64,000 nucleotides of DNA, from the NCBI GenBank assembly GCA_011037195.1, contig JAAEAF010002754.1, forward strand, positions 62,001 through 126,000. The letters run 5' to 3'. Position numbers and translations under genes: made by a program. Origin of the DNA: Triatoma infestans. Lineage: Eukaryota; Arthropoda; Insecta; Hemiptera; Reduviidae. Positions 3,263 to 45,300 of this stretch are shown in pieces; position 1 is the first letter of the stretch; each line of letters begins with the position of its first letter. The notes under the pieces are model-generated. The model saw only the letters and a program-made list of their open reading frames with translations, did not search any database and had not been told where the DNA came from.

Positions 3263-3489
3263 CTTTATTTTACTTCAACCAATTAAAACCTTTGGTAAAG
3301 GATTTGTTGAAAAGCAATGTTAGAGGCTATCTTATTTAGTGGATCTTATTTGCTGGTGATAAACTCCACCCTATTTTAGTTATGACACTCGCTAAAACAA
3401 AAGTGGGTTTCGACTAAAATATATAACATTTTTTACAATCTGCTAAATGCAAATAGATGAAAAGAAAATAATGAGATAAAATAAAAATA

Positions 3490-3672
3490 TCAGAGACATT
3501 TTCCGTGGTAGCCTGAATTTGCTCTCTGCAAGTCTGTGTTATCAAACTGACTGGTAAACGCATCCTGAAGATGGGCGAACGCCCAAAGCCGGTCGATGAC
3601 CACAAAATGAAGCAGGCTGCCACGGAAAATGTCTCTGATGCTTTCCAGCTCTGCGGAACCAACCACCACAAC
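3490..3672 (+). mobile_element. Palindromic short retroposon, deleted copy with 12-bp TSD
   Basis: The insertion runs from TCAGAGACATTTTCC to CCAACCACCACAAC and is flanked by the direct repeat AAAATAAAAATA at 3478-3489 and 3673-3684. It is the short form of the 33031 element. The left arm is cut to 26 bases, which still pair with the mirror sequence at the end of the right arm. The right arm keeps the motif CATCCTGAAGATGGGCG followed by AACGCCC, but the GAAA box is mutated to CAAA. There is no coding capacity. I infer a non-autonomous element copied by another retroelement. Confidence 0.8.
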
Positions 3673-3714
3673 AAAATAAAAATACTTGCCTTTCTTACCC
3701 TATATTTTTTATAG

Positions 3715-13027: not shown

Positions 13028-13338
13028 TTAATGTAGAGACAGTACTACACTCCAAATATTTAACCCTCTTATCTCAAATATATGTAAAATTAAATCTGGG
13101 AGGACATTAGCAGATATTCCATCCCAGTAAGTGGAAACAAGTTCTTTTTTATAGAATAGCGAGATATGGTTTTTATTTGTGGGTTTTGTAACGGCAGCGC
13201 GGAAGCTGCAGTTGAGTATGCTAGCCGTTGGCCTAACAGGAAACCATATAAACAGGGATCCGGGGTAAGAAGGAATGGAAGAATTATGGATCGGGAGGAG
13301 AAGTCTCGCCGTAGTTTCCCATCTTTTCCGAGTGCACA
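13028..13338 (-). other. Sequence downstream of gypsy integrase
   Basis: This stretch follows the integrase stop. It contains an open frame of about 103 codons starting inside the integrase end, without membrane segment, signal peptide or recognisable domain. I see no envelope gene. It may be the gypsy 3' untranslated region or genomic flank. Confidence 0.35.
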
Positions 13339-14418
13339 CTATGCTGGGTAAGGTTTTAAATCTTTGACATGCCAGATACCTAAATTCCTACCTTCCAAGT
13401 CCTCTACCTCAGCTATGATATCGGAGAGCATTCGAGTGATCCTAGCTTGCGTGTACTTGGGAGCGAGCTTGGCACTAAAATGGTGGCTCGCATCCGATAG
13501 GACCATATTTTGTTTCCAAACGATATCTCCAGCTTTATACTCCATGGATCTTCTTCTCAGATCGTAGTTCCTTCGACCCTTTTCATAGGCTCGGCCGAGT
13601 CTATCCTGGATCTCTTGGTATAGCAGTGGAAGCCTAGATATCTTCTCCAGATGGGCTTGCCTATCGACCTCAGGGACGCATAAGTGGTTAGGCATAGGAT
13701 CATAATCCTTTCCTGATCTTTTCAGTTCTCTTCCAAAATTGATGAACGCTGGGGTCATCCCGGTCGCTTCATGAACTGCGGTCTGGAGCGCGATCGACAA
13801 TTTCGCCAGATTTTTATCCCAATGCCTATGATTTCCCTTCACGTAGGAAGCCATCATGGTTTTTAGGACTCTATTTACCCGCTCCGTCGGGTTGGCTTGG
13901 GGATGGTACACAGCCATATACCAAGCAGTACACCCACATTCTTCCAACATGTGCTTGAATTCCCGGCTTTGAAATTGACTCCCATTGTCACAGATGATCC
14001 TCTGTGGAGCTCCGAACTTCAAGATTACCTGATCCTCTATAATAGCCGTTACCTTCTTCGCCGTAGCTTTTCGCATCGGTACCATAATGCTATATTTCGA
14101 GAAATAGTCCACCGCCACTAGAAATCGGTTTTGCTGAGAAAAGACGGGTAGTGGACCCATGATGTCCACGGAGACTATTTGCCAAGGCTGTGACACAAGC
14201 TTCTGTTCTCCCATCAGACCAGCGGGAGGGCGCTGAGTCGGCTTACACTCCTGGCAGATAGTACATCTGGCAACATAACGGGCCACATCCGCAGCCATAG
14301 CTGGCCAGTAATATTTTTCTTTCACCCTCTGCAGGGTTTTAAAACTCCCCAAGTGTCCAGAAAGGAGGCTGTCATGCATCTCTGATAGGATATCCATTCT
14401 TTGATCTTTGGGTACCAC
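13339..14418 (-). CDS. Ty3/gypsy integrase
   Basis: 359 continuous codons encode the integrase part of a Ty3/gypsy polyprotein, which joins element cDNA to host DNA. The zinc finger is complete (H15, H22, C52, C55). The DDE catalytic core is complete, with D85 in VDIMGPLP, D144 in ICDNGSQF and E179 in NPTERVNR, giving the expected D-35-E spacing. A C-terminal domain with a DIVWKQN segment follows. The frame opens at an internal Met because pol is broken just upstream at about 14420. The upstream neighbours are RNase H and RT in order. The integrity of this part suggests fairly recent insertion, though the full pol is not open. Confidence 0.93.
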   Translation of the reverse strand: MVPKDQRMDILSEMHDSLLSGHLGSFKTLQRVKEKYYWPAMAADVARYVARCTICQECKPTQRPPAGLMGEQKLVSQPWQIVSVDIMGPLPVFSQQNRFLVAVDYFSKYSIMVPMRKATAKKVTAIIEDQVILKFGAPQRIICDNGSQFQSREFKHMLEECGCTAWYMAVYHPQANPTERVNRVLKTMMASYVKGNHRHWDKNLAKLSIALQTAVHEATGMTPAFINFGRELKRSGKDYDPMPNHLCVPEVDRQAHLEKISRLPLLYQEIQDRLGRAYEKGRRNYDLRRRSMEYKAGDIVWKQNMVLSDASHHFSAKLAPKYTQARITRMLSDIIAEVEDLEGRNLGIWHVKDLKPYPA

Positions 14419-14445
14419 CAGCTTCCATTCCGATGGATCTCCAAG

Positions 14446-15209
14446 TTACTCAAGTGGGCCGTCCTTTACCCTGTTGAAGAGTTTCTTATTTTCCACAACT
14501 CTCCAGCTCGGATATCTTCCAGGTTTCCCCTTCACTTCTCGTAACATCTTCGAGTACCAAGAATCCACATCTTCAAATGAAAGATTTATGGCTTCAACGC
14601 ATTCTTCTGCTGCTCTGGATAATGCGTCGGCCGCTGTATTTTGTTTCCCCGGACGATGTTCCATGGTGAACTGGTATTGCTGTAATTTGATCGCCCACCT
14701 GGCCAATCTTCCCTGCGGGTCATTGAGATTCTTCAACCACAGGAGAGAATGATGGTCTGTGATTATGGTGAAGTGGTGAAGTTTACACCTTCCAGGTAAG
14801 GTCGAAATTTATTCACTGCCCATAGTACTGCCAAGCACTCCAACTCGGTTGCTGAAAAATTCTTTTCATTGCGAGTTAGCCCTCTGCTCGCAAAAGCTAT
14901 TGGTTTTTCTCCCTCTTCAAACTTTTGCGACAGAATAGCACCAAGCCCTGAAGTAGATGCGTCTGTCTGTAGAATGAAAGGACGACAGAAGACTGGGCAA
15001 GTCAGTATTGGTGCGGAGACCAAGACTTCCTTCAATTCCTTAACGGCCTGATCCTGTCTTTCTCCCCAACTCCATTTCTTGTTTTTCTTAAGCAGTTCTG
15101 TCAGCGGGGCACTAATCGTTGAGAAATGGGGCACAAATCTCCTATACCATGATGCGAGGCCTAAAAAGCGTCGCACTTGCTTGACCTTTTGTGGTTGAGG
15201 AAAATCCAA
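14446..15209 (-). pseudogene. Gypsy RNase H and connection region, frame-broken
   Basis: Two adjacent pieces. 15209-14763 carries the end of RT (RRFLGLASWYRRFV) and the RNase H start with TDASTSGLGAILSQ and an ATELECLAVLWA motif. 14736-14446 carries the RNase H end and tether, with EHRPGKQNTAADALSR. A frame shift near 14760 separates them, and a stop at 14446 cuts the link to integrase. Confidence 0.9.
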
Positions 15210-15217
15210 AATCGCTG

Positions 15218-16200
15218 CTACTTTTCTCGATCCACATGCAGTCCTTCCTTATCTACTACATATCCTGGGTACTTTAGCTCAGGCCTGCATACTTGTGCCT
15301 TATCCCAATTAACAGAGAGTCCTGCTCGTTGTAATCTTTGCAAAACCTGTTGTAGGGTTGCCAGATGTTCTTCAAAGGTCCTAGTTACCACCACTATGTC
15401 ATCAAGATAGACAAAAACTTTTGGCTCTAAGTCAGGTCCTAAAACTTGATCGATAAGACGCTGCCATGTCATCGGACTGTTATGTAGACCGAACGGCATC
15501 CTTACAAACTGAAAGAGTCGGCGTCCAGGTATCGTGAATGCTGTCTTCTCTCGATCTTTTGCAGCAACCTTTACTTGCCGATAGGCCGATTTTAGGTCCA
15601 GTGATGAAAGGTACTGAGCATCACGTAACCTGTCTAATATCTAGCTGATATAAGGTAGCAGATATGCATCACGCTTTGTGACCGCGTTCACCTTCCGGTA
15701 ATCTACACAGAAGGATACTTCCCATCTGGCTTCTTGACCACGACCACCGGTGAGGACCATGGGCTTTGGGAAGTCTCTACGATTCCTTCTTCCAACATCC
15801 TGTCCAGTTCTTCATTCATTGCTGCCTGGATGACCGGTGAGATGGGGTAGTATCTTTGCTTGATCGGGAGGCTGTCCCCAGTATTAATGGTATGCTCGAT
15901 CAAGTTGGTACCCTGTAATGAGGATGGAGTCGCTGCCTTCCACTTCTTTAGAAATCGAAGTACCTCCTCTTTCTGCTCATATGAAAGATGTGGGCGTCCA
16001 ATCAACGCTGCTGACACTTGATTAGTAGCTACTACTTTAACGTTGGACTGAAAAGACCAAGTCTGATTCTTAATATCAGGGATCAAACTCATCGCCGACC
16101 AAAAGTCTATCCCCAGGATGATGTCATGAACTATGGATGGCACCACCAGAAAGTCTATCAACTTGACCTTCCCTGCCAAGTTAACTGGCAACTCTATCAA
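15218..16200 (-). pseudogene. Gypsy reverse transcriptase, frame-broken
   Basis: 16200-15703 holds the protease C-terminal linker and RT N-terminus (EGIVETSQSPWSSPVVVVKK). The segment 15702-15500 changes frame and includes a stop near 15642. 15499-15218 holds the catalytic core with MPFGLHNSPMTWQ and YLDDIVVV. At least two frame changes interrupt it, so no continuous polymerase can be read. Confidence 0.9.
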
Positions 16201-16289
16201 GCCTAAAACTTTAAAGAAGACCCGTCGGCCACTCTTACCTTCGGTAGGTCTCCCTTCCTTAACTTAGAGCCTAAACTTTGGAGTTTCTC

Positions 16290-16556
16290 CTATCCTGGAC
16301 CACCTATTAAGGAGTGGCTGGCTCCGGAATCTAATAGTCCGAGGAACGATATTCCCAAGATAGAAACCTGGACATGTGGTCTATCATCCTTTGGCTTTGT
16401 TGCATGTAGTAATGGCCGGCTAACCTGCTTCCCACTCAAAAAGTTTGCAACAACAGCTAGCCACTCTCTCCACTCCTGATCAGATGTGGACGTAGTTGGG
16501 CGAATCGAATTCTGTCCACTCATACTCGACCGCCTTCCTCGTTTCCCGATTGACAT
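16290..16556 (-). pseudogene. Gypsy protease region
   Basis: The frame overlaps the end of gag by 37 bases, consistent with a frame change between gag and pol. It encodes an aspartic protease start with the catalytic LLDSGASHSLIG. It stops at 16290, before the flap region, and the pol frame resumes by 16200. Confidence 0.85.
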
Positions 16557-17833
16557 ACACAGTCTTGTCTTGGCTTCTTACATTTCCCGCACTTTTCCTT
16601 CTTGGGATTGGTAGGGCATACTCTAGAAACATGGCCAAACTGTTGGCAGCTCCAACACCTAATTGTATCTCTTGAATTGATTCTCGGATTTGCCCCTTTG
16701 GTTGGTACTGAGATATTCATGACTGTGCTAGCTTTATATGATCTTGACGGTCTTGATCTCCTATATGCAAGGTCAGGCTCCATCATTCCCTGTGTCGGGG
16801 GCTCTTCATATCGAGACGCCATAGTTGATCCGATTTCGAGTTTCCTCAAAACTTTCTCAAGTTCTTCAATTGTGTTGAAGGTGGTAAGTGGAATCAAAGC
16901 TTGATATTCTTTCTTTACGTTCCGCTGAATAATGGCTAACTTTTCTTCTTCCGAAGGAGGTCTCGCAAGACGGGAAAACAACCCTTCCATCCTGGCAATA
17001 TATACCGTTGAAGTCTCTTCCGATCCTTGAGTGCGCTTCCTAATTTCCTCCATTAGCCGATATTCATAATCTAAATCCAAAAATGCGTAGCGTAATTGCT
17101 GGATTAAATCATCCCAGGATCTCATTTTATTCCGTTTCGCGCGGTACCATATTGAAGCAGTTCCTTTGAACAGGTCGCTGGCTGATCTAAACTTCTCTTC
17201 TTTGGAAATTCCTCGTGATAGTCTACAGTCCTCAACTTCCGCCAAGAAAGCACATAGGGTTTGTTCTGGGTTATCACCTGAATAAGATAATCCCCACTTG
17301 TATAATCTAAGGTCCCGCGAAGGTCTCGGTTCATTAAGGTTCGATCCGGATTCCTCAGAAGCACGGTTGACTGTCTCAACATCTGCTGGCAATTCAAAGT
17401 CCACCGATTGAACTGGTTGGTTAGGACGTGCCGAAGGCCTCTCCAACTGGGAGTGCTGTGGTCTCTCTAAGCCTTTCCCCAATTCTCCCAGCAGTGCTGA
17501 CTGACATTGAGCTTCTTCAATGGCAAGGTCCCAATCCTTTTTCAATTCCCCAGTGGTCACTATCCGGCCTAATCTGTCTTTCACATGTTGAAGACGAGTG
17601 CCAATGTCATCGATCACTTCCAAATTGCTCTTAATAATCAATAACTTCTTCTGGCAAAGACTCAACTCATCGTCCGCAGATAATTTGCTATTAATATCAT
17701 AACTGGGCAGAGTCTTGGAATTTAAAGCCTTACTTAATCTTTTCCGCAATTCAGGAACAGAACCCTCACCTGGCATGCCCCTAATAAATAGTTCATAAGA
17801 CAATTCGTCTTTGAGAAGTCGAAAAACATCCAT
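16520..17833 (-). CDS. Ty3/gypsy Gag polyprotein
   Basis: 437 continuous codons from an ATG that opens MDVFRLLKDELSYE. It contains a central retrotransposon Gag domain (about residues 190-330) and, near the C-terminus, a CCHC zinc knuckle CWSCQQFGHVSRVC with C-x2-C-x4-H-x4-C spacing. A second Cys cluster, CGKCKKPRQDCVC, follows. The product packages element RNA. The same start (MDVYRLLKDE) occurs in the relic at 52-53.5 kb, so at least two copies of this family lie in the window. The start is supported by that conservation. Confidence 0.92.
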   Translation of the reverse strand: MDVFRLLKDELSYELFIRGMPGEGSVPELRKRLSKALNSKTLPSYDINSKLSADDELSLCQKKLLIIKSNLEVIDDIGTRLQHVKDRLGRIVTTGELKKDWDLAIEEAQCQSALLGELGKGLERPQHSQLERPSARPNQPVQSVDFELPADVETVNRASEESGSNLNEPRPSRDLRLYKWGLSYSGDNPEQTLCAFLAEVEDCRLSRGISKEEKFRSASDLFKGTASIWYRAKRNKMRSWDDLIQQLRYAFLDLDYEYRLMEEIRKRTQGSEETSTVYIARMEGLFSRLARPPSEEEKLAIIQRNVKKEYQALIPLTTFNTIEELEKVLRKLEIGSTMASRYEEPPTQGMMEPDLAYRRSRPSRSYKASTVMNISVPTKGANPRINSRDTIRCWSCQQFGHVSRVCPTNPKKEKCGKCKKPRQDCVCQSGNEEGGRV

Positions 17834-18426
17834 TTTTATTTAATTTCTATTTTCTATATTTTCATACAAAAAAAAATTATTACCAAATAAATAAAAATTC
17901 TCCAGAAATTAGAATCGATGTAACTCCCAAAAAAAATGTAGTTAGGGGAAAAATTTACTTTTAGGACAACAAAAAAACAAAAAAAATTACTTAAAAATAA
18001 TGATGTCTACCTTAAATTAAATTGATTAAATATATACAAATATACAAAATATTCAGAAGTAAAAAATTGTGAAAAATAAATAACATATATAGCAATTACT
18101 TTCCCCGTAAAGTCAAAACAACAATAAGTATTTGATTCTGTCAAAAATAATCTTCTTTTTTTATCCAATCAAATTTACTTTCATTTACTATTTACTATTT
18201 TAACCCTGTACTTAAATTATATTAATCCCAACAGTAATAAATACCAACTAATATTACTAGGACTGACCCAAGTACGTTCATAAAATATTCAAAAAGTAAT
18301 AAATAATCTATTTTAGAAAAACGTACAAAACAAATAATTTAATCACTTAATGCCCAGAAATTATTCCTCTTATAAAAATTTGCCACTTACCCTTATAATC
18401 GAGCCCCACGTTGGTTGGGCCAATTT
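17834..18426 (-). other. Gypsy 5' leader with putative primer binding site
   Basis: AT-rich untranslated leader on the minus strand. Just inside the LTR edge it reads, on the minus strand, TTGGCCCAACCAACGTGGGG, resembling the TGGCGCCCAACGTGGGG type of primer binding site with a small insertion. The tRNA is not assigned. Confidence 0.6.
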
Positions 18427-18800: not shown

Positions 18801-19800
18801 AAAATGTAGCTACATACATATACGCATTTATTTCAAAGAACACTTTGTATATTCATGAAACTCCAGTCTACAATTTATAACAAAAAAAAAAAAATTAACG
18901 TATATGCTATTCCGGGCCCTGGAAATAGATAGAAATTAAAACAAAATACCTCCACTTTTAAACTAGAAGAACTAATTACACAAAAAAATATATGAATTAA
19001 ACTAAAAAAAAACAAACACTTTAGCTATCATATTTTTCGATTGCTCATTCTATATTTTTTTGCTGGTATTACATTGTATAGACCAAGTTTTTTTTGTTTT
19101 GTTTTTTTGCATTAGCTGTTAGGCCACTCACTAGTCACTATATTATTCTATAAATGAAAAAACTTCATCGTCAAATATCCAACATACCCACCTCCAAACA
19201 TCCAGCTACAGCACCTTTATTTCTATTCCATAATTTATACCTTGTTTATAAGGATACTCATTAATAAACATCCAATCAGTCATATTACATTCATACATTC
19301 ACACGCTTAGTTGCATTCATATCATCTTCAAATCTCATACCATTAAATACTCACATCCCAATAAATACATTCATTCTAATAATTTCACACAACTAAAATA
19401 ACAAGTACCCATGGTGGAGTTCTCGATATTCCTCACACCTCTAATTCCTAACCTAAATTAAATTTGTACACTATTTTTACATAAGATTCACTCTCACATT
19501 CACACTATGCCGGATTAGCGTATCCCTGTTTTATTTATTTTGAATTCTGAACAACGTTCAATCTATATAATATTTTATTTAATTTTTTTTTACTTCCTAA
19601 ATTTAAGGTGTTTTTGTACCAATAATTTATCAATTCTCCTTATTGCCGAATATCTTATTCCCAGATTTTCACAAAGGCTTTATTAACTTTTTATTCTTGC
19701 TATGTTTTTCAATAGTTCCTTTATTATAATACATAATACAGTCTTGTGTAGCCATCCTTCATCTGTTATGTGTATGACAACTGATGTAAAACAGTAATAA
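18801..19800. other. AT-rich stretch, outer LTR or flank
   Basis: Low-complexity AT-rich DNA with A and T homopolymers. It may contain the remaining outer part of the gypsy LTR. No gene is seen. Confidence 0.35.
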
Positions 19801-19810
19801 ATAAAATTTA

Positions 19811-20799
19811 AAAAAATCTGGTGTGAAACACTCACACAACTTTCTCTTACTTCAGTTTTAAAAATTGTAATTGACAAATTGTATAGTTTGTTTACCAAAT
19901 TTGATGAAATTCGTTGGAGTTCCGGTTTACTTATTTTCTTGAACTCGGAATATTGGACATCTATTTATTTATAATTGATTTTGTTTGGATGGTAGGATTG
20001 TATAATCAACTATGATAGCACTTTAGAGGAAATCTAACTCCACCTCTCCCCCAAAAAGGGCCCTTAAATGAATTTTTCCAGAGATGTTCCAGAGATGTTT
20101 TAAATAAAAGTTGTAGATCTTTGCATGAGTAGTTGATATTCAAAGTTTAAAGGAAATCGTCCGAGCTATTTTTGAGAAACTTGCAAGAAAGTAAAAAAAT
20201 ATACCAGAAAACTGAAAAATACATTTTAGTAAAAATCGCACTTCCGGTCATCTGATTTTTTTTCAAACTCGGAATTTCAACAACACATTTAATTCTAATT
20301 AATATTGTTTAGATGATAGAATTGTACAGTAAACTGAAATAGGACTTTAGAGGCCAACCCACCACCCCGCTCCCCTAAAAGTGCCCTTGAATGCATTTTA
20401 CCGGAGAAATATTTCAAATAAAAATTGTAGATCTTTGTAAGGTAGTTGATATAACAAGTTTAAAGAAAATCGTTAGAGCCATTTTTGAGAAAACTGCAAA
20501 AAAGGGAAAAAAACATTTAGTAAAGCGGTACTTCCGATCGAAGAATTTCGATCGCTGGCCTACTGTCGGATCCCATAGAGATACCAAAACGGAATATTAA
20601 GTTTAAACTTTCTACGATTTTTCGTTTTTGAGCTGTGCCGTTCACATACATACATACATACATAGACCATTTGCTAAAAACCACTTTTTTGGACTCAGGG
20701 GACTTCAAAACGGATATTTCCGGTGAAAACTCGTTATCGATAATTTGACACGAATACAATACTTCCTCTTACTAGAGGAGTAAGAGAAAGTTAAAAAAA
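19811..20799 (+). repeat. Dispersed repeat family A, full-length copy
   Basis: This is the clearest copy. AACTTTCTCTTACT at 19838-19851 and its exact reverse complement at 20779-20792 form 14-bp terminal inverted repeats, preceded by AAAAAATCTGGTGTGAAAC. Two internal sub-repeats of roughly 290 bases each contain AATTTTTCCAGAGATG-like, AAATAAAAGTTGTAGATC and AAATCGT(C/T)(C/A)GAGC phrases. A unique 3' block has TTTTTCGTTTTTGAGCTG, GACTCAGGGGAC and TTTCCGGTGAAAACTCG. It has no coding capacity. Confidence 0.8.
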
Positions 20800-22830: not shown

Positions 22831-23866
22831 ATATATAGTGCAGAAAGCTAAAAAGTCGCTATGCTGTGCTACAAGGGCCTGTGGGAAGTCATGGGGGTTA
22901 ACTCCAAGGATGACCCACTGGATATACACTCGGACCATTATACCGGTCATAACTTATGGCGCAGTGGTATGGTGGCCTAAGACGGAACAGGAGACAGCCA
23001 AGAGATGCCTTAGTGGAGTACAGAGGCTGGCGTGCCTCCTCATTACGGGCGCTTTTAAAAGTGCTCCGACATCTGCGCTGGAGGTGCTGCTGGGCTTGGC
23101 ACCGCTGCACTTGTTAGTGCAAGCGGAGGCGAGGGCCAGTGCACATAGATTGCGCAAAAATGGTCTTTGGAGGCAGTGCGGCTCCTTAGCCAAACATTTG
23201 GACATATTGCTAAAGGTCAACCCAGGCCCTGTGACAGACATGGCCCAGGATAGCATTTGTCCAACATACAACTTCGAGGCTCCATTTCGGGTGTTCCTAG
23301 GTTCTAGGGCGGAATGGTCCAAGGGGTGGGAAAAACGCTACCGGACAGGGCCTCTGTGGTTTACAGATGGCTCTAGGACAGAGTGCAGGACTGGAGCGGG
23401 AGTATACGGAATGAGCCCAGAGGTACTCATTGAGAGGCCGTTGGGCAGGTATTCCACTATATTCCAGGCTGAAGTGTTTGCTATTAAGGTCTGTGCCGAG
23501 GAGAATCTGCGTAGAGCCCCAAGGGGCAAGGTCATACGCATTTGCTCGGACAGTCAGGCTGCACTGAAAGCCTTAGAAGCTCACAGAACTACCTCATCCC
23601 TGGTGAAGGAATGTCGAGAGGCATTGTTGAGACTCTCCAGGCACAATAAGGTACAGCTGTTGTGGGTGCCTGGACATGTAGGGGTCGAGGGTAATGAGAC
23701 AGCTGATCAACTGGCCAGGAATGGGGCTAACACTCCGTTCATTGGTCCAGACCCGGTCCTGGGAATAACTGGCGGAGCAATTCGTGCAGCGATTAGAGAG
23801 TGGGTCGCAGTCAGCATGAAGAGCTCTGGAGGAGAAGCCCGGGTGCTATACACAGTAAAAGGATGA
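22763..23866 (+). pseudogene. LOA/R1-type LINE post-RT and RNase H region
   Basis: 367 codons. The start encodes VKYLGVILDTRLTWN and ITYGAVVWWPK, the usual post-core RT region. Residues ~190-325 form an RNase H domain with WFTDGSRTECRTGAGVYG (first Asp), an AEVFAIKVCAEE segment (Glu), ICSDSQAALKAL (Asp) and LLWVPGHVGVEGNETAD (His and Asp). RNase H plus the final knuckle place it in the LOA/R1/I group. The frame ends at 23866 and the C-terminal domain continues in another frame. Confidence 0.92.
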
Positions 23867-28423: not shown

Positions 28424-28781
28424 TAATTGTTGTAGTATTGATTCCGCAGAACTGGAAAGCATCAGAGATATATTCCGTGATTTTTTGTGGTCATCGACTC
28501 GTTTCGGGCGTTCGCCCATCATCAGGATGCGTTTGTCAAACACTGTGATAACACAGACTTGCATAGAGCAAATTCAGGTTTTTACACTCGTGTATAAACT
28601 AGTTTATGTATAAATCGTGTATAAATTAAATTCAGTTTATACAGAGTGAATAAACTGAATTTACTCTGTGGAAGTCTGTGTTATCACACTGTTTGACCAA
28701 CGCATCCTGATGATGGGTGAACGCCCGAAACTGGTCGATGACCACAAAAAAGAAGCAGGCTATCACGGAAAATATCTCTGA
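28424..28781 (-). mobile_element. Palindromic short retroposon, long copy
   Basis: Orientation is opposite to the 33031 copy. The extension (GATTCCGCAGAACTGGAAAG) lies at the left and the TCTCTGA end at the right. Left and right arms (about 28455-28545 and 28680-28781) are inverted copies containing CATCCTGATGATGGG(C/T)GAACGCCCGAAAC. The spacer itself folds (AAATTCAGTTTATAC and mirror). The flanks CAACTTATGCA (28413) and CAACTTTATATGCA (28782) are a plausible diverged target duplication. Confidence 0.75.
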
Positions 28782-29520
28782 CAACTTTATATGCACTTTA
28801 CACAAATTATATTTACGAATGTTATGAACAATAAATAGAGGATATAGTGATGATGTTGGTAGCGTGATGTAAAATGTTAGCGTTGGCTTATGTAAGTCGG
28901 TTGATGAGCCTTATTGCTAGTTAGAACTCTTTCTTTTTCCAATAGGCGGTTGCTAGTTGGTGAAGGTTCTCTGGATTGTAACATGCTTTTGGCAGGGATG
29001 CATAGAGACAGTAAGCTCTTGAATGCGTGACTGACTGTTACTTCTTTAGCTTGTTTAGGCATCTTCACTTGTAGATTTGAACAGCCATAACGCATGTCTA
29101 GCGACTTGCATCAGCCAATGCTACCATTTTATCTCACTCCTACTGACATCATCACTCTCTCCTCTATTTATTACTCAAAAGGATGTAAAACTTGTTAAAA
29201 TCTTCCGGCTTTTTATCCCATTTCTCCTACTCTTGATGGAGAGCTAGAAAGTGCTTCTAAGAGAAACTTGGTTCATTCTTCCAACGGATGCGATAGAGCT
29301 AATGCGTAGTTGAAGTGCGCCTGTAGGCAAGTTGCTAGCGCTTGATGCGGCTGGTTTTCAAATCTGCAGTCCATGACATGTTTGAACATTGTTTATTGCT
29401 CTTTCAATTGCATGATTTATTAGCATATTCTACTTTTTTCCTGCTTTCGAGGCAAAATTAATAATTAATTTTATAAGAAAAATTGAATTCGATTTGTAAT
29501 ATGAGATTCATTTATATAAA
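28782..29520. other. No recognisable feature
   Basis: No gene, repeat boundary or domain seen. Confidence 0.4.
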
Positions 29521-29523
29521 TTA

Positions 29524-30412
29524 CAAAAAAATCTGATGTGAAACACTCACACAACTTTCTCTTACTCCAGTTCTTAAAATTATAATTGACAAATTTTATA
29601 GTATGTGTACCAAATTTAATGGAATTCGTCGAAAACTGAAAAAAAAAAGTCAATAAAGGCGCCGGTTTACTAATTTCTTTGAAACTCAGAATTTTGGCAA
29701 TCTATTTATTTCTAATTAATTTTCTTTGGATGATAGAATTGTATAATTATGTCTAGTGTATAAAGTGCTACTATAAAGAATTAATTAATTATTAATTATG
29801 TCTAGTGTATAAAGTGCACTTTAAAGAAAAATATAAACCCACCCTTCTCCTAAAAGTGCCCTTAAATGTATTTTACCAGAGAAATATTTTAAATAAAAGT
29901 TGTAGATCTTTGTATGTTTAGTTTATTTAGGATGTTTCAAGAAAATCTCGGAGCTATTTTTGAGAAAATTGTGAAAAAGTGAAAAAATAATTTAGTAAAG
30001 TAGTAAAGTAAACGTTAAATTTTCCCAAAGAAATATTTAAAATAAATGTTGTAGCTCTTTGTATGTGTAGTTGATATACCAAGTTAGAAGAAAATCGTCG
30101 GAGCCATTTTTGAGAAAAACGCAAAGCGTAAAAAAATACAAAAAAAAAACTAGTAAAGTAGTACTTCCGGTTGAAGAATTTCAACAGATAACGTACTGTC
30201 AGATTCCATGGTGATACCTAAACGGAATATCAAGTTTCAACTTTCTCCGGTTTCTCGTTTTTGAGCTATAATGTTCACATACACACACCATTGCTAAACA
30301 CCACTTTTTTAGACTCAGGGGACCTCAAAATGGCTATTTCCGGTGAAAACTCGATATCGAAAATTTGACACGATTACAATACTTCCTCTTACTAGGTAGG
30401 ACTAAGAGAAAT
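29524..30412 (+). repeat. Dispersed repeat family A, near full-length copy
   Basis: It starts AAAAAAATCTGATGTGAAAC with AACTTTCTCTTACT at 29553-29566 and ends with CTAAGAGAAA at about 30411. The internal order is the same as in the 19.8 kb copy: AAATAAAAGTTGTAGATC sub-repeats, then the GACTCAGGGGACC and TTTCCGGTGAAAACTCG block. Confidence 0.78.
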
Positions 30413-31480: not shown

Positions 31481-31689
31481 TTTATATTTGTAAAATTTTT
31501 CCAGAAAATCAGTGATTGTTCCGGATTTCCGGCGGAACAGTATCGTTAAATTTACCTCTAAGGTACCACTTTACAGTATAATATTAATTACTTTACTATA
31601 CATTAGAATTCAAAATTAGGATAGAAGTTCTTCCTTATCCAATCAAACTCTTTAACCCCACATCTATTGTTTAAAATAAAATTACAAAA

Positions 31690-32411
31690 AAAAAAAATTC
31701 TGTGTGTGAAACATTCGCACAACTTTCTCTTACTCCAGTTCTCAAAAATTATAATTTGTCAAACTTTATAATTTGTGTAACAAATTTAATAAAATTCTTC
31801 GAAAACTGAAAAAAAAATTTCAGTAAAAGCGCACTTCTGGTTTTTTACTTATCTCCTTGAAACTCAGGAATTTTGGCCATCTATTAATTTCTAATTAATT
31901 TTGTTTGGATGATAGAATTGTATAATCAACTATGATAGCACTTTAGAAAAAAAAACATAACTCCACTCCACCCATAAAGGTGCCTTTTAAATGAATTTTC
32001 CCAGAGAAATGTTTTAAATATATATTGTACATCTTTTATGTGTAGTTTATATGAGGTGTTTCAAGAAAATCGTTGGAGCCTTTTTTTTTTTTTTGAGTGA
32101 AAAAAATTAGTAAAAGTGGTAAAGTAAACCACTTCCAATGATCTGATTTTTTTTTAAACTCGAAATGTCAACAACATATTGAATTCTAATTAATATTATT
32201 TAGATGATAAAATTGTCTAATAAACTGAATAGCAGTTTAGATAAAAAAAAAACCTAACCCCATCCCTCCACCAAAAGTGCCCTTAATTGAATTTTCCCAG
32301 AGAAATGTTTTAAATAAATGTTGTAGCTCTTTGTATGTGTAGTTGATATAACAAGTTGGAAGAAAATCGACGGAGCCATTTTTAAGAAATTTGCAAAAAC
32401 GTTAAAAAAAA
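31690..32411 (+). repeat. Dispersed repeat family A, 3'-truncated copy
   Basis: It starts with AACTTTCTCTTACT at 31722-31735 and has two sub-repeats (AAATATATATTGTACATC, then AAATAAATGTTGTAGCTC). It stops at 32411 where a SINE begins, so the 3' block is missing. Confidence 0.72.
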
Positions 32412-32531
32412 TAACTGTAGCTTCCCACTTTTTATCACGATGCTGGGTCAACACCGTGAGGACTGACTTTGCCCTCACGGGAATCGAATCCTGAATTCTC
32501 TCACGAAAGGCGAGTGCGCTAGCTACTAGAC
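32412..32531 (-). mobile_element. SINE family 1, left half (split by hAT)
   Basis: Shares AACTGTAGCTTCCCAC, ATCACGATGCT and GGGAATCGAA(A/T)CCTGAATT with the SINE at 27120-27374. It is interrupted by the hAT insertion at 32532; the A-box end continues at 33628. Confidence 0.82.
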
Positions 32532-32857
32532 CAGTGATGGCGAACCTATGACACGCGTGTCAGTGCTGACACGCGAGCTCATTTTTGGTGACACGCATCT
32601 TCAAAGATAAAAAATTTCATAATTCAAAAAAATCTTTTTTTTCTGATAATGTAGCTCATATAGTTAGCAACTCTCTCTGTTTACTCATATTTTGTGTTTA
32701 GTATGTTTCATGGAAATTGTAAATACCGATTAACTTTTTTTTAAATTTTATCCCTGAAAAAGACAATAAATTTGTCGAAACGTTGGAAAAGATTAAAAAA
32801 AAGTGTACATTTTATTGACCGCTCCTCGAGATCTCCTTTAGTTGTTTTGCTAACAAT

Positions 32858-33030
32858 TTTGTCAACCACATATTTTTGTGAGACATTGTTCTCAGCATTA
32901 AATAATATTAAGATAACAAACGGAATCGGTTAACAGATGAAGTCAGTGACGCTTGCTTGGCCTTGAAATGTACCAAGTATAAACCCGAAATAGAAGATTT
33001 AGCAGACAAACTTCAGCACCAAAAAAGTCA
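32858..33030 (+). pseudogene. hAT transposase C-terminal fragment
   Basis: About 55 codons in two frames, with the hAT signatures CETLFSALNNIK and RNRLTDE. The reading is cut at 33030 by insertion of the palindromic element, just where the hAT protein would end. Confidence 0.82.
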
Positions 33031-33320
33031 TCAGAGACATTTTCCGCGGTAGCCTGCTTCACTTTGTAGTCATCGACCGGTTTCGGGCGTTCGCCCATCT
33101 TCAGGATGCGTTTTCAGACAGTGTGACAACACCGACATGCACAGAGCAAACTTAGTTTTCACACTCAAGTTTGCTCTGTACAAGTCTGTGTTGTCGCACT
33201 GTCAGAAAAACGCATCCTGAAGATGGGCGAACGCCCGAAACCGGTCGATGACCACAAAATGAAGCAGGCTACCACGGAAAATGTCTCTGATGCTTTCCAG
33301 CTCTGCGGAACCAACCACCA
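33031..33320 (+). mobile_element. Palindromic short retroposon with 14-bp TSD
   Basis: CACCAAAAAAGTCA occurs at 33017-33030 and 33321-33334. The element starts TCAGAGACATTTTCC and ends CGGAACCAACCACCA. Bases 33031 to ~33158 are largely the reverse complement of ~33162-33290; a 30-base extension follows. Each arm holds CATCCTGAAGATGGGCGAAC, then GCCCGAAACCGGTCGATG, which resembles a hammerhead ribozyme core with a CATC/GATG stem. It has no coding capacity, so it needs enzymes from elsewhere. Confidence 0.88.
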
Positions 33321-33627
33321 CACCAAAAAAGTCACTAATTTTTCATATATATTTATTTTCTAATTGTATAAATTTATATTGTTTTTCTGTTTTTGTTCAA
33401 TTATATTTTATATATATATTACTTGATTTTGTATGTTAAGTGTCAATGAAATATGTAAGACAAGTCTCTAAATGTAAACTAAATGGTTTCATAATTTTGG
33501 CTTCTGTATTTTAAATGGCATTAAACAAATAATTAACTTGATGAGTGACATGCCACGAGAATTATGTTTCTATTTTTCAAAATTTTGACACACTGAGCTC
33601 AAAAGGTTCGCCATCACTGTACTAGAC

Positions 33628-40309: not shown

Positions 40310-40460
40310 GCATTTACACAGTTCATTTTCTGAAAACCACTTTTTTTGGACTCAGGGGACCTGAAAACGTTTATTTTTCGATGAAAACTCGATATAAAAA
40401 ATTTGACGAGATTACAATTGTTATACATCACACGAGGATTAAGACAAAGTAAAAAGCTAC
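40310..40460 (+). repeat. Family A fragment, 3' block
   Basis: Contains GAAAACCACTTTTTTTGGAC, CTCAGGGGACC and AACTCGATATAAAAAATTTG. It directly precedes a full copy. Confidence 0.65.
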
Positions 40461-40488
40461 TTTAAGAATTCGTTAAAAAAAACAAAAA

Positions 40489-41645
40489 AATCTGGTGTGA
40501 AACACTCAGACGACTTTCTCTTACTGTGAAATAGCAAATTTTCTTCACACTTACAATTCTTATTAGTGTTTAACACCGTCGGCAATTTTTAATGGAGAAA
40601 AATCATAAAAAACTTAAATATCTATTCAATTAAGTTGCACTTCCGGTCAATCGATTTTCTTCAAACTAGGAATTTTGGCAACTTATATAATGCTAACATA
40701 ACATTATTTAGTTGAGAGAGATGTATGTTACTTTGTTGAACTGAAATAGCACTTTAGAGGAAAACATAACTCTCCCCACTCTACACCAAAAATGCTTTTA
40801 AATGAATTTTCCCAGAGAAATGTTTCAAATAAAAGTTGTAGCTCTTTGTAAGTTAGTTAATATTTAAAGTTGGGGCGGGTGTTGGTGTAGTGGTTATAAG
40901 CATGGACTTATAAGTGGGAGGACCCCAGTTCGAGTCCAGCGTATAGCTGCTAAATTTTATATTTGTTTAAAAAATGTTAATAGTAAAGTAGGTGCTTCCG
41001 CCCCCGTCCACGACACAGTTGGACCTTAAGCCCGCCTGAAAAATAGGCATTACTTTAATATTTAAAGTTCAATGAAAATGCGTAACCCCTACCCTCAGCG
41101 AAAAATGCCCTCTCAAATGAATTTTCCCGGAGAAATGTTTCAAATAAAAGTTGTAGCTCTTTGTAAGCTAGTTAATATTTAAAGTTCAATGAAAATGCGT
41201 AACCCCTCCCCTCAGCGAAAAATGCCCTCTCAAATGAATTTTCCCGGAGAAATGTTTCAAATAAAAGTTGTAGTTCTTTGTATGGTATAATTGATATATT
41301 AAGTTCAAAGAAAATTGTTAGAGTGATTTTCGAGCAAATCACATAAAAACTCAAAAAAAAAAAAACTATTCAGTAAAGTGGCACTTCCGATTGATATATT
41401 TTGCCCAAAATCTTCGTATCTGATGCGGTGGTAGTACCTAAACGGGAACTTCCTGTTACTTTTGGTTTTTGAAATATTTTTTTTCACACACAGACACCAC
41501 ATACTTAAATAATAAATCCTTTTCTAAAAATCACTTTTTTTTTGGTCTCAGTGGACCTCAAAATATGTATTTCGATGTAAACTCAATTTCGAAAATCTGG
41601 CACGATCGCAATACTTCCTGTAACAGCAGTTAGAGAAAGTAATAT
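40489..41645 (+). repeat. Dispersed repeat family A, copy holding a SINE and extra sub-repeats
   Basis: Termini are ACTTTCTCTTACT at 40513-40525 and AGTTAGAGAAAGT at 41628-41640. The AAATAAAAGTTGTAG(C/T)TC phrase occurs three times. The last two units (from 41070 and 41187) are a 117-bp tandem duplication. A SINE is inserted at 40872-41054. The 3' block ends in the usual way. Confidence 0.8.
40872..41054 (+). mobile_element. tRNA-derived SINE, family 3, with 15-bp TSD
   Basis: TTAATATTTAAAGTT flanks it at 40857-40871 and 41055-41069. The head has an A box TGGTGTAGTGGTTA and a B box GTTCGAGTCC at normal tRNA spacing. The acceptor ends do not pair and there is no functional tRNA 3' end, so it is a SINE, not a tRNA gene. 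Length 183 bp, with a GC-rich 3' part. Confidence 0.9.
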
Positions 41646-42359: not shown

Positions 42360-45300
42360 GTAAGTGTTATTTTTATTAAAATCACTGGTAAAGTATAGTA
42401 TTAAATTAATGCTGACAAGATAGATACGAAGATTACAGGGGATCATGATAACTTGATGGGCATCCTAGGCATACTTATGGTATTATCACATAACCGTACG
42501 ACTTAATTTGAATTGACTTGTTTATTCAGATATTTGCGATGCATCTATTAAGATCAACTCCCTTAAAATCTGTTCTAAAATTAATAGATAATGTATCTTT
42601 TTAGAACAGACACCAAAAACCTATCCCTCAGTCACAATCTCCTGGAATTTCCAAAACAACATACAGACTAAGACATGGTTTTCCCATCCGCTGTCCTAGC
42701 CCTTTATAAACCTTGACCCATTCAATGACCGTAAATCTTGGTGATGATATGTCATAGGTTATACTAGATTAATTACTACTAGAATTCTAACTAAAAAATT
42801 TTTGTAAGTACATTTCCTAAGTTATTTTCATACTGTACTCATATATGTCACACATATATTTTTTTATTAGTTGTGATTTATATTATTTAATAGTTGTGAT
42901 TTAGTTTAATATTGATCTGGCCTACGACAATAATTTAAAATAAATTTAATTGTACTCTATATATATCATACTCTGTACTTAGTTTATTTATATAGTTTAG
43001 TTTAAAAAAATTTGTATTCTGAAATTTAGTTTAAGTTCATATTTTCTGTTGGTTCTATTTTTTATTGATTTGTATTTCAACCTTTGTACAGACCCTGAAG
43101 AAGGCAATAAATTTACCGAAACGTCGGTAGAAATTTAAAAAAAGAGTTCTTTTGTATGACCGAACCTCAAAATCCATTTTCAACATTGATACAGCGGTTG
43201 TAACGAACACCAGAAACATATATATCCAATGTTCAGCAGCGGATAATCTGCCTCCTTTTCTAAATATTAATATCTTCGACTTCAGGAGATTGACTGTCAA
43301 ATTCCACTGTTCACAATAAGAGTTCAGAATATTGAAATTTCTCTGAAGATTTTAAAGGGCTATCGGCTAACAAAACCACATCATCAGTGTACATAAGTAT
43401 TTTTACCTTGGTACTTTCTACTAGGATTCAAACTAACATTGATGGAACATCATCCAAAAACAGGGAAAATAAGACTGGGCTCAGGATACACCCCTGCACC
43501 ACGGCCACCCCTGGACATATCTAAATATTTTGAAACATAATCCATATTTTATATTTATCAAAAAGTGCTTTTGTTGGGTTTTAATTTCATAAATTTATGT
43601 GCTATGTATAATTTTAACGTTAAATGCAAAAAGTTAATTGAAGCAAATATATTTTAGGTATTTTTAGTAATAATTTTAGCAATTATTCTCCAAGTTTCCA
43701 CTTTATTTCATTACAACGTTTCGGCCTTCTTCAGGCTGCAAATTTTCATAATTTTTTACTGTTATATTCAAACATGTATTAAATCAGTCATTTACATTTT
43801 ATAGTAGTTACCTCGTGGTGATGTCTTTCCTCAGAGACAAGTAAATGCTCGTGGTTTTTATGTTATCTTTGTGTATTTTGGTGGGGTAGCCACTATGTCA
43901 ATTCGAAGACACCCTTCGCCAGGAACAATTTTTTTATGCTATGAATTTTTTTTATATATTATTCTACTTTTACAATTTTGCTACTAAGTACATACTTATT
44001 GTTTGAATAAAAAATCGGTAATATTTAAGAATCCGTAGCATAAGAAAATTGCTCCTTGTGAAGGGTGTCTTCGAATTGACATGTGGCTATGCCAACACAT
44101 AAGTAATACATAATTATAAAATACAAAACAATGAGCACTTAGCTCTGAGAAAAGACACCATCCTAAGGTAACTACTATAAAATATGTAGGATTAATTTAA
44201 TACATGTTTAAATGTAAAAGTAAAAATTTACAGCCTGAAGGAGGCTGAAACGTTGTAATGAAATACTTGAAACGTGTTAATGAAGGCCGAAACGTTGTGG
44301 AAACTTGGAGAATAATGGCTAAAATTATTATTAAAAATACCTTATGAAATCAAATCTGTAAAATAGCAATGTATAATGTAAATATTTCTTCGAGTCTTGA
44401 AATATACAGTATAATTAACATCAATCGCTTAATGGGTGGTATTTAATGGTAGTTTGTGGACATTTTATAATCAAATTTTTATGGTTTTTAATAAATAAAT
44501 TATAGTATTATATAATCCTTATAATACAGTTACAGTAATATCTGTATACTTGAAATGAATTTACTTTAAAATATAAATCATTAAAATCCAAATTGTCTTA
44601 ATTAGTAACCATTTTACTTACCTAATAAAATTTTTGTTCAGATAATAAAATTTGATTACTGTTAATTTTATTTAACAGTTTCTGAAAATGACTAAGTAAT
44701 TAAGGTCAAAACATCAATTATGTAAAAAATTTGGAGGTTATAAATGAAATAGTCATCACTATTTAAAAGCCAAGTACAAAATAGAAGAGAAGTAGTAATA
44801 GTCTATAAATTTAAAAATTAATAATATTTCCTTTCTCTAGGGGACGCTGCTCTGTTGGTGAGACGTGGGAATCTATATTTCGTAGGAAAATGGGGAAAAT
44901 CCAAAACCAGAACACCACAAATAATAGAGAAATTGAATTTCGAACAAGTTCGCTGTAAGTATCACAAATAATTTTATCTTTGTTAAACACTTCTTTATCA
45001 TATTTTAATGAATGCACAAAGAAATTTTATTATTCAGGTATTGCATCGGGTATTGGACATGCAGTTATTGTAAGCAATAAAGGATTTGTAAGCACAATTG
45101 GGATAAATAATATTTCCGGACAATTAGGTGTAGAAAAAGATCGATATTCAAGCAGAGATATATTATGTGTGCATTTTCCAGTTGTTTCTGCAATAATTGT
45201 GGACGTTTGTTGTGGAGACGATTTTACATTAGCATTAGACAATGCTGGTTTGGTAAGTGTAAAACTGTATCTCTAATTCTTAATACTTGTTTTGTTAAAA

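Follow-up and report, generated by a model that had tools for sequence, protein, structure and literature searches.

Head-to-head terminal fragments of an abundant Penelope-like element in the Triatoma infestans genome

Palindromic insertions in the window and the carrier of one of them

We analyzed a 64,000-nucleotide stretch of Triatoma infestans DNA (the window; GCA_011037195.1, contig JAAEAF010002754.1, positions 62,001 to 126,000). Three related insertions lie within it, at about 3, 28 and 33 kb, and the last of these sits inside a DNA transposon. Coordinates below are those of the window.

33031..33320 (+): two-armed Penelope-like element (PLE) insert, short (S) end on the left, tailed (T) end on the right, arms head-to-head; tail of ~30 nt on the right only
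33017..33030 (no strand): left copy of the 14-bp target duplication CACCAAAAAAGTCA, exact
33321..33334 (no strand): right copy of the 14-bp target duplication CACCAAAAAAGTCA, exact
33071..33108 (-): hammerhead-like motif as read from the sequence, left arm of the 33 kb insert
33213..33250 (+): hammerhead-like motif, right arm of the 33 kb insert, CATC-CTGAAGA-T-GGGC-GAAC-GCCC-GAAA-CCGGTC-GATG
33223..33320 (+): first 98 nt of the PLE ORF, with the ATG inside the motif; the frame reads MGERPKPVDDHKMKQATTENVSDAFQLCGTNHH and starts as in the full element (L075)
28424..28781 (-): second two-armed PLE insert, T end on the left, S end on the right; imprecise duplication
3490..3672 (+): third PLE insert, S arm of 26 nt, T arm with tail
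3478..3489 and 3673..3684 (no strand): 12-bp duplication AAAATAAAAATA of the third insert, exact
32532..33619 (no strand): non-autonomous hAT-like DNA transposon carrying the 33031-33320 insert, TIRs CAGTGATGGCGAACC / GGTTCGCCATCACTG
32524..32531 (no strand): left 8-bp duplication TACTAGAC of the hAT-like element
33620..33627 (no strand): right 8-bp duplication TACTAGAC of the hAT-like element

An earlier note on this DNA had described the three insertions as a short palindromic retroposon family with hammerhead-like motifs. The exact target duplications that it reported, 14 bp at 33031-33320 and 12 bp at 3490-3672, are both present; at 28424-28781 the best ungapped score was 7. Common ends do characterize the set, but 28424-28781 has them only on the minus strand, and the two outer ends within one insert are unequal, one being ...TCTCTGA and the other ~30 nt longer. 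The description of the copies as mostly inverted repeat fits the 33 kb insert (arms 97% complementary over 86 nt) and the 28 kb insert (90% over 103 nt) but not 3490-3672, with its one arm of 26 nt. Likewise, the type-I-hammerhead-like motif is found in the arms of the 28 and 33 kb copies, but in the 3490 copy the core is damaged, reading GCCC-AAAG-CC instead of GCCC-GAAA-CC. The pattern CTGANGA-N(1-12)-CGAAAC occurs five times in the window against 0.08 expected, and four of the five lie in the arms of the 28 and 33 kb copies. Judged by sequence, the window palindromes are 5′-truncated, head-to-head inverted pLTR ends of a very abundant PLE.

In the 941-Mb assembly (13,959 contigs), the hammerhead-like core was found at 23,237 + 23,041 places with up to three mismatches, compared with 3 + 3 for a reversed control. 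The loci that we studied were mostly drawn from the first 100 of these 46,278 core places and match the core exactly. Two motif copies were present in 10 of the first 28 loci, always antisense then sense (L006 repeats L005). Collections of viral contigs, genome contigs and phages contained no relative; the four phage matches were 23 nt long at E = 3.

The junction of the 33 kb insert recurs at 113 + 127 places genome-wide (control 0). Both this recurrence and the ~46,000 core copies favor a self-spreading, non-autonomous, retrozyme-like family in which the palindrome is transcribed, cleaved by its hammerhead and reinserted as a unit, and the ~240 junction copies at first looked like strong support for it. 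We compared 13 junction loci, 12 fetched for this comparison plus L094. All 13 carry the surrounding ~1.09 kb element, nearly whole in 12 and with an internal gap in L097, and the junction recurs because the DNA transposon carries the insert in every one of them. The inner 14-bp duplication is present as two exact copies in 12 of the 13 loci and as one copy in L108, whereas the outer 8-bp duplications differ between loci: five are exact, one has one mismatch, two are unmatched, and five were not assessable as the TIR was not found exactly. From the TIRs and the 8-bp duplication we take the carrier to be hAT-like. At L094:735-1830 (contig C23), the same hAT-like element with its PLE insertion is 98% identical over 1,097 bp; its outer duplication is different (GTTTAGAG), which makes it a transposed copy and not an allele. 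The empty site of the PLE insertion gave three matches (1, 2 and 3 mismatches), each with a single copy of the 14 bp.

The 33 kb insertion thus most likely happened once: it would have landed in a hAT-like element that then multiplied with it. As it lies inside this transposon, its many genomic copies are not separate retropositions. The self-spreading family, which we rejected and regard as extremely improbable, is contradicted by other observations too. We found no shared junction when the central 60 nt of 38 independent two-armed inserts were compared, which suggests that each insertion builds its own palindrome. For the transcript of the 33 kb copy, a hairpin of -220 kcal/mol that takes in the motif is predicted. 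The studied PLE of Anolis carolinensis, PAc, requires the first 172 nt of the ORF in its template (PMC11167929), and the copies stop before this part; since they are without the ORF sequence that the enzyme of that element needs, the short palindromes are probably dead ends. The hAT passenger shows how one integration footprint can resemble a self-spreading family.

The window also holds other repeats. A palindromic element at 43656-44342 has CTGAAGAAGGCCGAAACGTTG-like motifs in its arms (three inverted pairs), in which stem II would have almost no loop; it is possibly an old PLE-like element or an unrelated foldback. A 46-nt repeat with hammerhead-like order, CC(C/T)TGAA(A/G)AAG(A/G)CAATAAATTT..CGAAACGT(T/C)GG, occurs at 241-286, 32752-32797 and 43093-43138, the copy at 32752 lying inside the hAT-like element. 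Frames of a gypsy-like LTR retrotransposon (gag, protease, RT and integrase by eye), broken into several, span 13028-17839 (-). A diverged interspersed repeat with GGACTCAGGGGACCTCAAAA and GGTGTGAAACACTCACAC segments is found at 19777-20764, 29492-30395, 31660-32413 and 40315-41626, and a similar piece occurs in the center of the insert at locus L004. Rfam microRNA matches in the window fall below gathering scores and reflect long hairpins; we discarded them.

The full element and its hammerhead-like motif

The sense arm has an open frame from the ATG inside the motif, and the tail is in frame with this ORF. One 5′-truncated copy (L031) consists of a GIY-YIG-like frame (the nuclease end), then the 3′ UTR, then an arm. 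A search with the L031 frame returned 3,671 first-look candidates, 150 of which were scored (E from 6.7e-82 to 3.3e-63). Open frames of up to 841 codons were seen among these 150, as were two matches less than 4.1 kb apart on four contigs (C13470, C8630, C3126 and C1051), all head-to-head. Locus L075 contains a full element, made up of an inverted pLTR, a pLTR, an ORF whose start lies in the motif and, on the 3′ side, a further pLTR that has both the motif and the tail, so that pLTRs in both direct and inverted orientation surround the ORF.

L075, 643 (-), 1157 (+) and 4362 (+): motif copies
L075, 1167-3638: ORF of 823 codons

An old degenerate relative of the PLE end (70% identity) adjoins the full element at L075:131-233.

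At E ≤ 0.001 we found 127 homologs of the L075 protein, the top one sharing 51% identity with it, and the organisms named among the matches listed are insects. RVT_1 was found in all five homologs scanned and GIY-YIG in three of them; in the alignment of homologs with the L075 protein, the RT (R-x-V-D-D) and nuclease (Y...Y-x-G-x-T-x-R) columns line up. In the L075 protein itself (P0002), Pfam detected neither RT nor GIY-YIG at E ≤ 1, and NCBIfam reported a Drt3a RT at 5.9e-13, below the family cut-off. Pfam and NCBIfam named no PLE domain in P0001 or P0002, and a PDB sequence search with P0001 returned nothing. The L075 layout and the homologs with RVT_1 and GIY-YIG identify the insertion family as a PLE, whose ORF would, by homology, encode the RT and GIY-YIG nuclease typical of such elements. 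It is a known kind of element at large copy number, and the palindrome is an integration footprint, not a new class of retroposon. What survives of the proposed retroposon family is that the insertions are retroposed and have target duplications; a separate short palindromic, retrozyme-like family does not, the arms being pLTR ends that belong to a full PLE of this genome.

The core CUGANGA ... GAAA ... UH is present in order in the 28 and 33 kb arms and in 60 unselected arms. Stems I and II have 4 bp each, stem III is without room for a loop in the monomer, and one extra T precedes stem II. That base had been read as a misfit to the hammerhead core; it is there because it is the T of the ORF's ATG (CTGANG-ATG), and an extra base after A9 is also known from natural hammerheads. 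In the published PAc element, the ORF likewise begins at stem II (PMC11167929).

It is unlikely, though by no means negligible, that the resemblance is non-functional and reflects only a conserved sequence at the ORF start. A search with the Rfam hammerhead models, which the earlier note had suggested, gave no match at gathering scores or E ≤ 10, and the PLE ORF overlaps the motif from A9 on. The missing loop room in stem III of the monomer points the same way, as does ViennaRNA, which prefers another fold for the monomer (-11.9 vs -8.5 kcal/mol for stems I and II). Against this, the core bases are all present, and their variation is of a particular kind. Because most loci are exact core matches, conservation within the pattern is biased, and we therefore dropped one matching arm per locus. 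In the 60 remaining arms, which were not used for selection, N7 is the only position of the 38-nt motif that is polymorphic at the subfamily level (A in 40, T in 19, C in 1), and it is the free position of the hammerhead core, whereas 14 of 80 sites outside the motif are polymorphic at this level; coding constraint may contribute to the low variation as well. ACCGGU is self-complementary, as a dimeric form would need, and stem III could form between two molecules only; PLE hammerheads are thought to act as dimers. PAc, which has the same layout, cleaves once protein is added (PMC11167929). As a ribozyme finding the motif is mostly explained, PLEs with hammerheads being already known, and the ribozyme would serve the RNA of the full element and not the palindromes.

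Outer ends of the inserts and formation of arm pairs

Besides pLTR sequence, the arms extend into the start of the ORF and end either at its nucleotide +68 (S; ...TCTCTGA) or at about +98 to +110 (T), the T ends lying 30–40 nt past the S end and being AC-rich (...CCAACCACCACAAC). Searching with the pLTR of L075 plus the beginning of its ORF, and typing the ends, we obtained 43 head-to-head pairs, 43 single matches and one neighbor pair in the other order (L041). Among the head-to-head pairs, 35 were S+T, one S+S, one tail plus ORF-continuing, five tail plus other and one other plus other; the singles comprised 19 S, 19 T, four other and one ORF-continuing. For 36 typed pairs, the median duplication score was 10.5 as opposed to 5.0 for re-paired flanks, and scores of at least 9 were reached in 27 of the 36 versus 0.9% of 644. 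By matched length the duplications are mostly 11–15 bp. The 5.6 kb head-to-head copy L076, taken whole, is also S+T.

An independent end caller was applied to 90 sources; L006, L007, L012, L022, L024, L027 and L034 were left out because they are covered by other loci. It called 101 outward-facing end pairs (75 S+T, 20 S+S and 6 T+T), which sort by duplication score as follows.

Score at least 8: 44 pairs, 42 S+T, 1 S+S, 1 T+T
Score at least 9: 41 pairs, 40 S+T, 1 T+T
Score at least 10: 33 pairs, all S+T

Random left and right ends reached a score of 9 in 29 of 1905 draws for S+T, 17 of 1378 for S+S and 15 of 667 for T+T (1.2–2.2% per pair), so that about one case other than S+T is expected by chance at 9 or above. 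The sole T+T pair at this threshold combines the old degenerate end at L075:132 with the 3′ end of the element. Since L094 repeats the window insertion on a second contig, the independent S+T inserts at 9 or above number 39, one of which (L065) is doubtful because its duplication lies within PLE-like sequence. Some S+T pairs are without a duplication (scores under 9), and L009, S+S according to the caller, has by eye an internal deletion in the tail. Duplications also flank single-armed copies with an S end (L007, L013, L026, L039, L046 and L052) or a T end (L017, L037 and L066), in a check that took in 31 of the 43 single matches; each start site thus appears usable alone. We did not find the short-plus-tail rule in the main text of PMC11167929, in the Discussion and further passages of PMC3846280, in section 13 and further passages of PMC7229834, or in the passages of PMC8969392 that concern us here.

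We consider it highly likely that the arms are truncated copies of the abundant PLE made when both target strands prime reverse transcription, the palindromes being the integration products. It is also probable, with less confidence, that both strands prime in one event and that the two RT starts fall at two different sites on the element RNA, one each, to give the S+T product. The GIY-YIG-type nuclease of the element would make a staggered cut in the target, and each target strand would act as a primer on the element RNA, reverse transcription beginning at the tail site from one strand and at the short site from the other. Both cDNAs would then run toward the RNA 5′ end, halt at varied points and be joined with or without filler; single-armed copies would result where one cDNA alone was made or kept.

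The inverted pairs might instead come from self-priming, in which a strand of the PLE folds back at its end and is copied. Self-priming has been suggested for rotifer Penelope elements, with an antisense template, in the Discussion of PMC3846280, and many of the inserts here have near-equal arms and a short center. We examined junctions, centers and diagnostic sites in typed lists of 39, 38 (37 scored) and 34 S+T inserts, respectively. The unpaired center has a median of 37 nt; eight of the 37 inserts have centers of 15 nt or less, but 23 have centers longer than 30 nt, which does not suit a folded-back strand. Centers of L004, L044 and L081 contain some sequence that is not obviously PLE. A strand copied from itself should end where the original ends, yet in 40 of the 41 duplicated pairs one end has the tail and the other does not. 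In L070 and L087, both with perfect 12-bp duplications, the tailed arm is tail sequence only (about 27 and 17 nt) and absent from the other arm, so the two arms share no sequence, and the arms of L003 come from two subfamilies.

Arm distances in 42 pairs did not separate the models: in 29 the arms were farther apart than either arm from some other copy, and in five they were closer. The diagnostic-site test was used instead. Of 360 diagnostic comparisons made in 34 inserts, 331 were concordant between the two arms, whereas re-paired arms gave a mean agreement of 0.613 and a maximum of 0.733; this indicates that the two templates usually come from one source; arms mostly from one source are also what self-priming would give. 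On balance we regard self-priming as quite improbable.

Two-sided target priming with one start site per strand, which we infer from these footprints, has evidence against it as well. L075 is an exception: its outer ends (about 551 and 4466) are both tailed and have no duplication, no score of 7 being reached. L070 and L087 could be later deletions. For PAc, no start-site difference between the strands was seen in vitro (PMC11167929), which by itself does not predict one of each. If two-sided priming is right, head-to-head inverted pLTRs would be the normal footprint of a two-fold enzyme acting on an asymmetric pair of start sites and not an accident of copying. The later steps of PLE integration have been left for experimental validation (PMC11167929). 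The value of the finding lies in this integration footprint, the ~46,000 motif copies providing an extensive natural collection of integration products, and the part worth following is the short-plus-tail rule, which makes a sharp and testable prediction.

Comparison with known systems

The element resembles Penelope/Poseidon-type PLEs such as PAc and, as described in PMC3846280, the Pen elements of Adineta vaga: it has one ORF with RT and GIY-YIG-type nuclease, pLTRs that may also be inverted, an optional tail of 30–40 bp with an AC-rich end, target duplications and an ORF start at hammerhead stem II. The PAc cut site lies 26 bp downstream of its ORF start at stem II (PMC11167929), compared with 24 bp in the window PLE. 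Two reverse-transcription start sites bound the PAc tail, the commonest in an AC-rich stem-loop at 111–118 (PMC11167929), whereas the tail end here falls at about +98 to +110. Both strands were cut and extended by PAc with no start-site difference between them, and its hammerhead cleavage is protein-dependent and dispensable for insertion in vitro (PMC11167929).

In the part of PMC3846280 considered here, the A. vaga Pen elements have inverted pLTRs, one of which may carry a 31-bp tail, and their duplications measure 8–10 bp, unlike those of mostly 11–15 bp by matched length in T. infestans. In the passages of PMC8969392 used here, pLTRs in inverted orientation and short extensions at the 3′ end are mentioned as features peculiar to individual copies. 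Compared with PAc and, to the extent that the cited parts describe them, the A. vaga elements, the PLE of T. infestans differs in its ~46,000 core copies and in the almost invariable pairing of a short end with a tailed end in each two-armed insert.

Animal retrozymes, according to PMC7229834, are comparable in being small repeats that contain type I hammerhead motifs and have target duplications of more than 4 bp, but they are direct tandem repeats, whereas the copies here are inverted, arranged head-to-head and derived from an autonomous PLE. The two-core loci were head-to-head in 10 of 10 cases, in addition to the 43 head-to-head pairs, direct repeats not being counted separately from these; L075 does have pLTRs in direct orientation, but around an ORF. 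Finally, the element at 32532-33619 is like hAT-like non-autonomous DNA transposons in its terminal inverted repeats and 8-bp duplication, and unlike others of that kind it carries a PLE insert and has spread it.
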